64,000 nucleotides of DNA, taken from assembly GCF_010894435.1 (NCBI RefSeq), contig NZ_JAAIXZ010000005.1, positions 372,001-436,000 of the forward strand. The letters run 5' to 3'. Position 1 is the stretch's first letter. Each line of letters starts with the position of its first letter. Both the position numbers and the translations under genes were made by a program. Positions 27,123 to 33,475 of the stretch are shown in pieces. The notes under the pieces were generated by a model. The model worked only from the letters and a program-made list of their open reading frames with translations, did no database searches and was not told the DNA's origin. The stretch is from Pyxidicoccus trucidator (GTDB lineage Bacteria; Myxococcota; Myxococcia; Myxococcales; Myxococcaceae).

Positions 27123-27869
27123 TCACTTCTCCTTGGAAGCAATCTTGCGCAGCGCCTTCTGGTCGCGCACGCAGAGGATGCGGCCGACGTTGCCGAGCAC
27201 GCCCTCGCGCTTCATCTCGTTGATGAGCGTGGACACGAAGGAGCGCGAGGCGCCGACGAGGTCCGCGAGGTCCTGCTGGGTGATTCCGCGCAGGTCCGTC
27301 TCACCGCCGTGCGGGCAGCGCTCGCCGTGCGCCTCGACCAGGGTGAGCAGGGTGTCCGCCAAGCGGGCCGGAACTTCCTTGAACGTCAGGCCCAGCACGC
27401 GCTTGCGCAGCGAGCGAACGCGCTCGGCGTAGGCGCGGACCACGTCCACCGCCAGGGCCGGACGGGCCTCCAGCTGGGCGCGGAAGTCACGGCCTTCGAT
27501 GCTCCACACCTCGGCCTCACCGGCGGCGACGGCCATCTCCTCGATGGGCGTGCCCTCGGGGCGGAACAGCTCGCCGAACAAGTCACCGGGGCGGAGGATG
27601 GACACCACCGAGCGGGTGCTGTTCTTGCCGATGCGCATCAGACGCACGCGGCCGGACTTGAGCAGGTACACGCGGTCCGTGTTGTCGCCGGGGCGGTAGA
27701 TGGTCGAGTTGTGGGGGAAGGACTCGACCTTGAAGTACCCCTTGAAGTCGATGGCCTCCTGGCCGGGGATGAGCTTGTTGGCGGTGACCATCATCCCGGA
27801 GGAGGTCGTCTGCAGCGGCGCCACGACGTTGGAACCGATAGGGCCGAGGGGGCGATTGAAACCGTGCAT
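27123..27869 (-). CDS. mrpC: Developmental transcription factor MrpC (Crp/Fnr family)
   Basis: 248 residues from ATG 27869, which has GGAG eight bases upstream. A cyclic-nucleotide-binding-like barrel (about 45-150; YRPGDNTDRVYLLKSGRVRL, GDLFGELF) is followed by a helix-turn-helix (ITQQDLADLVGASRSFVSTL). In Myxococcus xanthus MrpC is essential for fruiting-body formation: it activates fruA and many developmental genes and represses its own promoter. The sequence agrees with what I recall of that protein almost residue for residue. A Met-Met pair at residues 26-27 is retained where the shorter MrpC2 form of M. xanthus begins. The gene follows mrpAB on the same strand but has its own promoter region of about 260 bp. 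Confidence 0.93.
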   Translation of the reverse strand: MHGFNRPLGPIGSNVVAPLQTTSSGMMVTANKLIPGQEAIDFKGYFKVESFPHNSTIYRPGDNTDRVYLLKSGRVRLMRIGKNSTRSVVSILRPGDLFGELFRPEGTPIEEMAVAAGEAEVWSIEGRDFRAQLEARPALAVDVVRAYAERVRSLRKRVLGLTFKEVPARLADTLLTLVEAHGERCPHGGETDLRGITQQDLADLVGASRSFVSTLINEMKREGVLGNVGRILCVRDQKALRKIASKEK

Positions 27870-27941: not shown

Positions 27942-27957
27942 TCCAAGTTACGTGCCA
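27942..27957 (-). promoter_or_regulatory. Sigma54-type promoter of mrpC
   Basis: On the minus strand TGGCAC (27957-27952), five bases, then TTGG (27946-27943) matches the -24/-12 consensus TGGCAC-N5-TTGC except for the last base. Transcription would begin near 27931, about 60 nt before the ATG. In M. xanthus mrpC transcription depends on the NtrC-type activator MrpB, which fits a sigma54 promoter. Confidence 0.65.
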
Positions 27958-28039
27958 GCCAGGAATGAAGTGCCAGCGGGGGAACACATTCAGTAATGCC
28001 GGGTACTTAGCGCTACAGCCCCGCATCACCCGGGTTTCT

Positions 28040-28057
28040 GTGTCCAAAACCTGAAAC
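28040..28057. promoter_or_regulatory. MrpC-like binding site upstream of mrpC
   Basis: GTGTC (28040-28044), eight bases, then GAAAC (28053-28057). This is one change from GTGTC-N8-GACAC, the half-site arrangement I recall for MrpC sites. It lies roughly 85-100 bp upstream of the sigma54-type promoter, consistent with negative autoregulation. Assignment is by motif similarity only. Confidence 0.45.
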
Positions 28058-28058
28058 A

Positions 28059-28097
28059 GAACGTTCAAACAGTCTGATCAAGTTGAACGGAACGTTC
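28059..28097. promoter_or_regulatory. Two GAACGTTC palindromes, candidate MrpB enhancer sites
   Basis: The perfect palindrome GAACGTTC occurs at 28059-28066 and again at 28090-28097, 31 bp apart (about three helical turns), each followed by AA. A GTTGAAC variant lies between them at 28083-28088. Paired dyads on one helical face 100-150 bp upstream of a -24/-12 promoter are what an NtrC-type activator such as MrpB would bind. Confidence 0.5.
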
Positions 28098-28113
28098 AAT
28101 CCGGGCCCCCCAC

Positions 28114-28129
28114 TGTCGCGCCCGCGACA
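28114..28129 (-). terminator. Hairpin after mrpB
   Basis: TGTCGCG (28114-28120) and CGCGACA (28123-28129) form a perfect inverted repeat immediately downstream of the mrpB stop on the minus strand. There is no U-run. It may separate mrpAB from mrpC transcription. Confidence 0.4.
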
Positions 28130-28133
28130 ATGT

Positions 28134-29585
<1,452 letters not shown>

Positions 29586-30569: not shown

Positions 30570-30613
30570 TTGATGGGCCTGAAACATACCGAGTAAGGTC
30601 GCGCGCTGTCCCT

Positions 30614-33475
30614 ATGTCCATCACGACACGTCTTCCGAAGAACCTTGTGGCGGCCCTCCTCTTCCTGTCGGGCGCCACGGCTCTGGTGTACGAACTGGTC
30701 TGGTCCAAGTACCTCGGGAACGTCCTCGGGAACAGCGGACAGGCGCATGCCGTGGTGCTCGCTACCTTCATGGGTGGACTGGCGCTCGGGGCATCTGTCT
30801 TTGGGAGGACAGCCGACCGGGTGAAGAACCCCCTGGCCCTCTACGGGCTCCTGGAGCTGGGCGTGGGCCTCTACGCCCTGGCCTTCCCCTATGTCCTGGA
30901 CGCCCTGAGCTCGCTCTGGCTGGTGCTGGCGCCCGCCGTCCCGGACGGCTTCCGGGTGGCGCCCCGGCTGCTGGTGGCCTCGCTGTCGCTGGTGGTGCCC
31001 ACGCTGCTGATGGGTGGCACGCTGCCGGCGCTGGTGCGGCACTTCGCCTCCAGCCTGGCGGGCGTCCAGCGCGAGCTGGCCCGCCTCTACGCCGTCAACA
31101 GCCTGGGCGCGGCGACGGGCGTGTTCATCGCGGGCACGAAGCTGGTGCCGGCGGTGGGGCTGGCGGCCTCCGCGCAGGGGGCCGCGGCGCTCAACGTGCT
31201 CCTGGCCCTGGCGGCGCTGGCCCTGGCGCGGCAGCACCCGCCGACGCTGGCCCCGGGTCAGTCCGCACCGGACGTGGACGGGACGGCGGACGTGGTCTAC
31301 CCCCGGGCGGCGGTGCGGGCGGCGCTGGTGGGCGTGGCGCTGTCGGGCTTCACGTCCATGCTGTACCAGGTGACGTGGATCCGCCTGCTGTCCATCGTCC
31401 TGGGCGCGTCCACGTACGCCTTCACGCTCATCCTCACCGCCTTCATCCTCGGCATCGGCCTGGGCAGCTTCTGGCTGATGACGCGCGCCGCGAAGGTGGA
31501 CTCGCTGCGGCTGTATGCGCGGATGCAGGTGGCGCTGGTGGTGAGCCTGTGTGTGGCGCTGCCCCTGTACGTCCGGCTTCCGTACTACTTCCGCACGGCG
31601 CGCTGGATGCTGACACCGTCGCTGGACACGTGGTCCGTGTTCCAGTTCGTCACCTTCGCCTTCTGCTGCGTGGTGCTGCTGGTGCCCACCTTCTTCATGG
31701 GGGCGGCCTTCCCGGCGGCCGCGCGCGTGGCCACGGCCAAGGTGTCCGAGGTGGGGCGGCAGCTCGGCGGCGTGTACCTGTGGAACACGGTGGGCACCAT
31801 CACCGGCTCGGTGCTGGGCGGGCTGGTGCTGATGCCGTGGTGGGGCATGGAGGGCAACTTCGTGGCGGGGGCGGTGGTCAACCTGGCCGCCGCGGCGCTG
31901 GCCTTCTCCGCCGTGCCGGGACGCCCGGCCAGCCCCGTCCGCGCCCTCTGGCCGGTGGCGGCGGCGGCGGGACTGGCGGCCGTGGTGCTGGGCGGCATGC
32001 AGGGCTGGGCGGTGCGGCTGAGCAGCATCACCTCGCCGCGCATCCACGAGCGGGCGCCGAGCTACGAGAAGCTGGTGGCGAGCACGGAGCGCAACACCGC
32101 CCCCGTCTTCTACAAGGACGACACCTTCGCCACGGTGCTGGTGGCGGACATGACGGGCAAGCACCGCTTCATGAAGCTCAACGGCAAGGTGGACGCCTCC
32201 ACCGGCAGCGACGTGGAGACGCAGGTGGTGGCCGGGCACCTGGGCGCGCTGCTGCACCCGCGTGAGCCGAAGAACGTGCTGGTGGTGGGCGCGGGCGCCG
32301 CCATCACCGCCGGCAGCGTGCTGGCGCACCCGGTGGAGCGGATGGACCTGGTGGAAATCTCCCCGGCCGTCATCGACGCGGCGCGCCTGTTCAAGGACGC
32401 CAACCGCAACGCGGTGGACGACCCGCGCACGCACGTGCACGTGGACGATGCCAAGACGTTCATGGCCCTGGCGCCCCGCAAGTACGACATCATCGTGAGC
32501 GTGCCCTCCAACCCATGGGTGGCGGGCGTGTCGGGCCTCTTCACCCGGGACTTCTTCCAGACGGTGGACCGGCACCTGGCGGACGACGGCATCCTGGTGC
32601 AGTGGATCCACACCTACGAGAACCGGCAGGAGCTCATCCAGCTGGTGATGCGCACGCTGCGGGACACCTTCCCGCACGCCACCACGTGGCTGGGGCCGTA
32701 TGACCTGGTGCTGGTGGCCAGCCGCAAGCCGCTGACCTTCGACGCGCAGCGCATGGCGGCGCGCATGGCCCTGCCCGCAGTGAAGGAGGACCTGGCGCGG
32801 GTGGACATCCACGACGTCTTCGCGCTGCTGTCCAAGCAGGTGCACAGCGAGCAGGGGCAGCTCGAGTTCGCCGGAGAGGGCCCCATCAACACCGACGACG
32901 ACAACATCCTGGAGTACGCCTCGCCCATCGCGTTCTTCGTCGGGGACCTGGACCGCTACCACGACGAGCGGCGCGCCCCGGACGGCGGCTCGCGGCTGCT
33001 CATCAACGACTACGTGCGCCAGCATCCGCCCACCGCGGAGCAGCTGGCGCGGCTGCACCGCAACATGTCGCGCTATCACCGGGTGGACGACCCCCTGGTG
33101 CGCGGCGTGGCGGCGCGGTGGCACGCGCTGGCCCCGGACAGCCGCGACGCGGCGGTGGCGCTGGCGAAGGCGGCGCTCGCCCAGCAGGACCTGTCGCTGG
33201 CCGCCTCGCTGCTGGAGGCGGAGGTGGCGCGGGGCGGGCGTGAGCCGGCGCTGGTGACTGCCTACCTGGAGATGGCGACCACGCGCCTGTGGGCCACGCG
33301 CACCGTCTGGACGCCCGCGGAGGCCGATGCGGCGCTGGCGCTGGGCCGCGAGGTGGCCGGCGCCCACCCCGGAGACACCGCGCTGGCCGAGGCGCTGACC
33401 TCGCTCTGCAAGGCCCTGCCGACCTCCACCTGCGTCCCGGCTCCGGCCCCCGCCGCCAGCCCCAATCCCCCCTGA
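30614..33475 (+). CDS. Fused MFS-like membrane domain / spermidine-synthase-like protein
   Basis: 953 residues from ATG 30614 (MSITTRLPKNL). The first half has about a dozen hydrophobic segments (LVAALLFLSGATALVYELVW, VVLATFMGGLALGASVFG, LIMTRAAK-type loops). The second half carries an aminopropyltransferase/methyltransferase Rossmann domain: FYKDDTFATVLVAD, KLNGKVDAST, LVVGAGAAITAGSVL, MDLVEISPAVIDAARLF, DDAKTFMALAPRKYDIIVSV, then FTRDFFQTVDRHLADDGILV. A helical repeat-like tail with Pro/Ala end follows. Such fusions are annotated as fused MFS/spermidine synthase; real polyamine synthesis has seldom been shown for them. Only 44 bp separate it from the divergent mrpA gene. Confidence 0.8.
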   Translation: MSITTRLPKNLVAALLFLSGATALVYELVWSKYLGNVLGNSGQAHAVVLATFMGGLALGASVFGRTADRVKNPLALYGLLELGVGLYALAFPYVLDALSSLWLVLAPAVPDGFRVAPRLLVASLSLVVPTLLMGGTLPALVRHFASSLAGVQRELARLYAVNSLGAATGVFIAGTKLVPAVGLAASAQGAAALNVLLALAALALARQHPPTLAPGQSAPDVDGTADVVYPRAAVRAALVGVALSGFTSMLYQVTWIRLLSIVLGASTYAFTLILTAFILGIGLGSFWLMTRAAKVDSLRLYARMQVALVVSLCVALPLYVRLPYYFRTARWMLTPSLDTWSVFQFVTFAFCCVVLLVPTFFMGAAFPAAARVATAKVSEVGRQLGGVYLWNTVGTITGSVLGGLVLMPWWGMEGNFVAGAVVNLAAAALAFSAVPGRPASPVRALWPVAAAAGLAAVVLGGMQGWAVRLSSITSPRIHERAPSYEKLVASTERNTAPVFYKDDTFATVLVADMTGKHRFMKLNGKVDASTGSDVETQVVAGHLGALLHPREPKNVLVVGAGAAITAGSVLAHPVERMDLVEISPAVIDAARLFKDANRNAVDDPRTHVHVDDAKTFMALAPRKYDIIVSVPSNPWVAGVSGLFTRDFFQTVDRHLADDGILVQWIHTYENRQELIQLVMRTLRDTFPHATTWLGPYDLVLVASRKPLTFDAQRMAARMALPAVKEDLARVDIHDVFALLSKQVHSEQGQLEFAGEGPINTDDDNILEYASPIAFFVGDLDRYHDERRAPDGGSRLLINDYVRQHPPTAEQLARLHRNMSRYHRVDDPLVRGVAARWHALAPDSRDAAVALAKAALAQQDLSLAASLLEAEVARGGREPALVTAYLEMATTRLWATRTVWTPAEADAALALGREVAGAHPGDTALAEALTSLCKALPTSTCVPAPAPAASPNPP

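Follow-up and report, generated by a model that had tools for sequence, protein, structure and literature searches.

Paired MrpB-type dyads and an overlapping MrpC-type site upstream of mrpC in Pyxidicoccus trucidator and its relatives

The genes mrpA, mrpB and mrpC are consecutive on the minus strand of a 64,000-nucleotide stretch of the Pyxidicoccus trucidator genome (contig NZ_JAAIXZ010000005.1, positions 372,001 to 436,000; called the window here), and a control region lies between the intact genes mrpB and mrpC, the latter a fruiting-body gene. This locus raises the question which sequences in the gap could be read by MrpB and by MrpC and how the two proteins would share them. For Myxococcus xanthus the binding of both proteins, their competition and its effect on expression have been published (McLaughlin and Higgs 2023, PMC10701913). 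A preliminary description of the window had listed a -24/-12 promoter, a GTGTC-N8-GAAAC element and two GAACGTTC palindromes, all of which are present where it placed them, and had proposed the palindromes as the recognition sequence of MrpB. Our analysis upholds the general picture and replaces this recognition sequence.

The mrpB-mrpC gap and its relatives

The genome containing the window has a size of 12.67 Mb. Its MrpC is 100% identical to a Pyxidicoccus fallax protein and also identical in two other named genomes, and the MrpC of M. xanthus AM003 shows 98% identity to it. In relatives, too, mrpC is preceded by mrpB. The recognition-helix stretch ISRPTLERKL of MrpB is kept wherever the helix-turn-helix was located by our script, with the exception of L034 (LEREL); the script gave nothing for L106, L107, L112, L123, L124, L125 and L126. 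Upstream of the operon the predicted starts of mrpA and of the divergent gene are only 26 bp apart (30587-30614), so that an mrpAB promoter would fall largely inside the neighbouring coding sequence.

For the comparison MrpC was sought in the genome collection, which gave 35 loci, and in 145 genomes of the order, 94 of which had a match and 90 of these were fetched (without G011, G012, G058 and G068). A search of the wider class (147 genomes, the order plus two) left the number of matches unchanged at 94. Merging of identical upstream sequences, with L018 left out for its shortness and L033 because it begins inside mrpC, gave 91 rows: 63 close relatives, 26 deeper rows with mrpB and two rows lacking an mrpB match. 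Counts over the 63 close relatives are not independent, since the relatives are kin and only identical rows were merged. We searched for the proximal site at a distance of exactly 31 bp to the distal dyad, the MrpC motif was scored as TGTYN8RACA, derived from the TGTYN8RAC given in PMC4320627, and column identities were computed on all 63 close-relative rows. The locus L011, from a record titled Comamonas sp. KCTC 72670, carries mrpB-mrpC of the Myxococcus type, and the label looks wrong.

Table 1. Genes and sequence elements around the mrpB-mrpC gap (window coordinates; row counts refer to the 63 close relatives)
Feature	Position	Strand	Remarks
mrpC, CRP/Fnr-type regulator, 248 aa from ATG at 27869	27123..27869	-	Pfam cNMP_binding and HTH_Crp_2 (scan began at upstream GTG, 27878)
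Sigma54 (-24/-12) promoter TGGCACGTAACTTGG	27943..27957	-	TGGCAYN5TTGG in 63/63
Weak MrpC-type site TGTT-N8-GGCA, candidate counterpart of M. xanthus BS1	27971..27986	-	1 mismatch of 8; <=1 mismatch at fixed offset in 52/63
Conserved block, core AGCGCTAAGTACCCGGCATT	27993..28015	-	Mean column identity 0.93
MrpC-type site GTTTC-N8-GACAC on the minus strand (= GTGTC-N8-GAAAC)	28040..28057	-	Left arm overlaps proximal MrpB-type dyad; <=1 mismatch of 8 to TGTYN8RACA in 63/63
Proximal MrpB-type dyad TTGAACGTTCTGTTTCA	28052..28068	-	Good arm TTGAAC exact in 63/63; degenerate right arm GTTTCA in 60/63
Conserved stretch between dyads, ending TGATCAGACTGT	28069..28082	-	TGATCAGACTGT in 62/63; mean column identity 0.94
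Distal MrpB-type dyad TTGAACGTTCCGTTCAA	28083..28099	-	TTGAAC-N5-GTTCAA with 0/1/2 mismatches of 12 in 39/22/2 of 63
Perfect MrpC consensus TGTC-N8-GACA, candidate counterpart of M. xanthus BS5	28114..28129		0 mismatches; starts exactly 30 bp before distal dyad in 61/63
mrpB, NtrC-type enhancer-binding protein, 483 aa, Fis-type HTH	28134..29585	-	Pfam Response_reg, Sigma54_activat, HTH_8; C-terminus matches chains of Fis and NtrC
mrpA, histidine kinase, 330 aa	29595..30587	-	Pfam HisKA and HATPase_c

Extent of the candidate MrpB recognition unit

In the window the two copies of GAACGTTC lie at 28059-28066 and 28090-28097 with a spacing of 31 bp. The alignment of the close relatives separates two parts of what had been predicted for this pair. 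The spacing is retained without exception, the TTGAAC of the proximal site being exact and placed 31 bp after the start of the distal dyad in 63/63 rows. The exact palindrome pair is found in only 4/63 rows, with GAACGTTC exact at the proximal position in 47 rows and at the distal position in 4; in the other 59 rows the distal 8-mer is missing and the dyad around it is kept. The conserved distal unit is a 17-bp dyad, TTGAAC-N5-GTTCAA, which is present with at most one mismatch of 12 in 61/63 rows. Its five middle bases read GTTTC in 44 rows, GAAAC in 10 (Archangium and others), GTTCC in 3 and otherwise in the remaining 6, and its centre is TTT, AAA, ATT, AAT or TTC. Since the centre varies while the dyad stays, the 8-mer arises at the distal site only if the centre happens to read TTC, with a middle starting GTTC. 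This can be seen by comparison with M. xanthus AM003 (L008), whose distal dyad is TTGAACGTTTCGTTCAA: the difference from the window creates the second GAACGTTC. In L031 the same change is found in both arms of the distal core (TCAACG-N3-CGTTGA), as would be expected for symmetric recognition.

Counts over larger stretches of DNA are in line with this correction. Three copies of GAACGTTC are found in the window and 0.53 are expected from shuffling, a statistic which flatters the 8-mer because it is over-represented genome-wide (135 occurrences vs 14 of the reversed pattern as a rough control) and partly clustered (among 50 places listed of the 135, 26 are within about 130 bp of another), and because the loci read show a GGAACGTTC-type repeat. 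Pairs of the form GAACGTTC-N20..26-GAACGTTC occur at two places in the 12.67 Mb, the window and L001. We set the L001 pair aside as a second MrpB enhancer, since this stretch of the window's own genome contains three GGAACGTTC-type copies and the pair lies inside their cluster. The dyad core TGAACGN3CGTTCA is rare, with 4 exact copies in 12.67 Mb, of which the three outside this locus are located in another promoter (one, at L129) and inside open reading frames (two). That MrpB recognizes two 8-bp GAACGTTC units would suit the window itself, where both are perfect and correctly spaced, and the good conservation of the proximal copy; the loss of the distal copy in nearly all relatives, its variable middle bases and the abundance of the 8-mer in the genome led us to reject this reading, which we regard as highly improbable. 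None of the papers searched combines mrpC and GAACGTT.

What is added here is a corrected motif, a rigid layout with fixed 30-, 31-, 12- and 111-bp offsets, an element outside the interval described before and an apparent MrpB/MrpC compromise half-site.

Layout of the promoter and proposed sharing of a site by MrpB and MrpC

The control region had been delimited as 27942-28099. Its elements are confirmed, and its extent proved too small, because the best MrpC-type site lies outside it (28114-28129). Measured from the start of the proximal dyad, the overlapping MrpC-type site with at most one mismatch begins after 12 bp and TGGCAYN5TTGG after 110-112 bp, both in 63/63 rows. Mean column identity over these rows is 0.94 in the distal dyad and likewise between the dyads, 0.98 in the proximal dyad, 0.94 in the rest of the overlapping MrpC-type site and 0.87 in the sigma54 promoter; the outer and the weak MrpC-type sites reach 0.79 and 0.74 with their middle eight bases free, the spacers 0.54-0.65 and the leader 0.67. 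The sigma54 promoter, proposed before from the window, is thereby supported in all close relatives. Its assignment rests on this conservation, since matches to the pattern as such are no more frequent in the window than expected (52 at <=2 mismatches vs 76).

Two further conserved stretches were noted. The TGATCAGACTGT between the dyads (28069-28082) fits neither the MrpB nor the MrpC motif. The block at 27993-28015, between the promoter and the MrpB-type sites, shows a degree of conservation close to that of the binding sites. It was rejected as an MrpC site, TGT not being its conserved part in the 64-row alignment described below, and also as a regulon-wide box, its core AGCGCTAAGTACCCGGCATT having no second copy in the genome at <=2 mismatches and one other at 3.

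The described M. xanthus promoter has overlapping MrpB and MrpC sites, UAS1/BS3 and UAS2/BS4, and in BS5 and BS1 further MrpC sites, the latter placed to hinder sigma54; its MrpB sites are published at -182 from the start codon (McLaughlin and Higgs 2023, PMC10701913). MrpC sites between -261 and -84 are cited by Robinson 2014 (PMC4320627). The dyads start at -230 and -199 in the window and at -229 and -198 in M. xanthus AM003; in the latter genome the proximal dyad ends at -182, and the starts of MrpC-type sites are at -259, -186 and -116. Measured from the start codon, the dyads, the sigma54 promoter and the MrpC-type sites are displaced by 1 bp between the two. The dyads agree in position with the pair of MrpB sites published at about 182 bp upstream of the mrpC start, a match by distances and not by site sequences. 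The UAS and BS sequences of the M. xanthus mrpC promoter were reportedly published by McLaughlin in 2018. Gene order, sigma54 promoter, two candidate upstream activating sites, flanking MrpC-type sites and an MrpC-type site overlapping the proximal dyad are common to the window and M. xanthus. Judged from position and consensus, 28114-28129 is probably the counterpart of BS5, and position and TGT residues suggest 27971-27986 as that of BS1. As layout and coordinates match the published promoter, we consider it very probable that the region in the window is the ortholog of the M. xanthus mrpC promoter at which MrpB and MrpC compete, and works by the mechanism proposed below; the competition with a sigma54 core suggested in the preliminary description agrees with this (PMC10701913).

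According to this mechanism MrpB, the sigma54 activator encoded just upstream, would bind two sites 31 bp apart, of which one is presumably read as a strong 17-bp dyad, TTGAAC-N5-GTTCAA, and the other as a weaker dyad with a single intact arm. Because 31 bp are about three helical turns, both sites would probably lie on one face of the DNA, and MrpB may loop from there to the sigma54 polymerase about 110 bp downstream, whereupon mrpC transcription would start. MrpC would bind the site sharing bases with the weak MrpB arm and so block MrpB there, and it would also bind the perfect site 30 bp further out and the weak site just upstream of -24. The predicted outcome is negative autoregulation of mrpC. 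The basis of this mechanism in the window is the positions of the elements, their conservation and spacing, the rarity of the dyad in the genome and its linkage to mrpB. Enhancers of NtrC-type activators are paired inverted repeats upstream of sigma54 promoters. The window resembles them in its paired dyads about three turns apart and about 110 bp upstream of -24 and in the Fis-type HTH of the activator; it differs in the half-site TTGAAC and in having one dyad that is degenerate in one half and shares bases with a CRP-type site. Regarding other inputs, PMC9765219 and PMC7643160 together add control of the mrpB promoter by Nla28 and binding of AskB to the mrpC promoter.

The mrpB stop codon (28134) is followed within about 82 bp by both dyads, and the inverted repeat of the distal one is perfect, as one would also expect if they were RNA or terminator structures ending the mrpAB transcript. 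We give this explanation very little probability: no T-run follows the dyads, a 17-bp dyad with near-invariant 30/31/12-bp offsets looks like protein sites, and a reporter without the region carrying UAS1 and 2 showed no significant expression (PMC10701913).

The MrpC-like site had been described as lying next to the first palindrome. This adjacency is correct; with respect to the 17-bp dyad, however, the two overlap, the MrpC-type site sharing 5-6 bp with the downstream arm of the proximal dyad. In 60/63 rows this arm reads GTTTCA and not GTTCAA. The arms of MrpB (GTTCAA) and MrpC (TGTY) call for different bases at three positions, one of which has the base of MrpB and the other two that of MrpC. 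Against the CRP-family MrpC motif TGTYN8RAC (PMC4320627), scored as TGTYN8RACA, the window has a perfect match at 28114-28129 and matches with one mismatch of 8 at 28041-28056 and 27971-27986; the middle one of these lacks the G of TGT, at the base where the MrpB arm wants T. Read at the level of bases, the pattern of the proximal arm fits competition at this site.

Two such overlaps are published for M. xanthus, whereas by consensus we find one at the proximal dyad only. Over the distal dyad no offset gave an MrpC consensus with a mean of 3.2 mismatches of 8 or better in a 64-row alignment selected by GATCAG (without L040, with L029 and L035; the block was checked for TGT in the same alignment). 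The second published overlap must therefore be of another type, or our MrpC motif is too strict. According to PMC10701913 its authors could not design mutations separating MrpC from MrpB at the overlapping sites. At the proximal site the 17-bp MrpB-type dyad includes no base of the GACAC arm of the MrpC-type site (28040-28044), nor does the MrpC-type site extend into the TTGAAC arm, and the conservation pattern suggests that MrpB and MrpC could be separated there by mutating these non-shared arms. If so, experiments could ask how far direct competition contributes to the timing of development.

The dyad in deeper families and at other loci

The 26 deeper rows with mrpB have MrpC proteins of about 52-92% identity. 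The dyad is present in 19 of them with at most one mismatch and in 23 with at most two (means of 0.04 and 0.32 in 300 dinucleotide shuffles); at <=2 mismatches it is absent from 3/26, and it is absent from both rows without an mrpB match. Two dyads with at most two mismatches each occur in 10/26 deeper rows at spacings of 20-46 bp, none of them at 31 bp. The MrpC overlap is found in L027 and L031 and is absent from the other 24; L111, without overlap, has kept the outer MrpC site at 30 bp. Of the 20 rows with overlap, 19 fall into one branch (support 93/91, below the starred level) of an MrpC tree built from 46 chosen rows. As L031 stands outside this branch, one origin with losses and two origins both fit. 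Tentatively, and with slightly more doubt than confidence, we suggest that the weak proximal arm might be a frozen, selected compromise between MrpB and MrpC, and that with the fixed 30/31/12/~111-bp offsets it might form a module for competition. In this tentative view the module would have arisen within the fruiting lineage and a few near relatives from an ancestral dyad or dyad pair of MrpB only, which other families keep without MrpC overlap. In some Corallococcus rows a one-mismatch dyad is located within the coding region of mrpB, at about -344 to -354; it is presumably fortuitous.

The corrected motif permits a sensible search for other MrpB targets. With at most one mismatch the dyad occurs 42 times in the window's genome, 38 times in G104 and 55 times in G075, an excess in all three over the pattern read backwards (14, 12 and 18). 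We claim no targets and no wider MrpB regulon from these sites. Among eight stretches chosen for GGAACGTTC-like sites, L202-L205 hold two or more repeat copies each, the site in L206 is inside an open reading frame, and L209 is again the locus described next.

An TGAACGGAACGTTCA dyad lies between D-Ala-D-Ala ligase-like and glycosyltransferase-like genes (named by eye from sequence) at L129 1501-1515 (G000:C2:615237-615251). In 26/27 genus genomes it is exact. A sigma70-like TTGACA-N17-TATTGT follows about 15 bp downstream, and the dyad may serve another regulator or be a second target of MrpB. With a conserved copy at a sigma70-like promoter elsewhere, the TGAACGGAACGTTCA motif may not be MrpB's alone. 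Taken further, this copy would speak for the dyads upstream of mrpC being the sites of another regulator that merely adjoin those of MrpB. We think this unlikely, since the dyads adjoin mrpB also in families with MrpC about 52-73% identical and are missing in the two rows without mrpB, their coordinates fit the published MrpB sites, and the centre of the ligase/glycosyltransferase copy is GAA in 27/27 genomes whereas that of the mrpC copies is variable.

A palindromic repeat around GGAACGTTCC, for example TGGAAGGAACGTTCCGTCCA, was seen in L001 of the window's genome and in L202-L205 of a relative; GGAACGTTCC was absent among the matches listed in a literature search on this repeat. It may account for part of the 135 GAACGTTC copies in the window's genome. 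In L203 (1548-2345) about 14 copies of the GGAACGTTCC-type repeat form an array with a period of 56.
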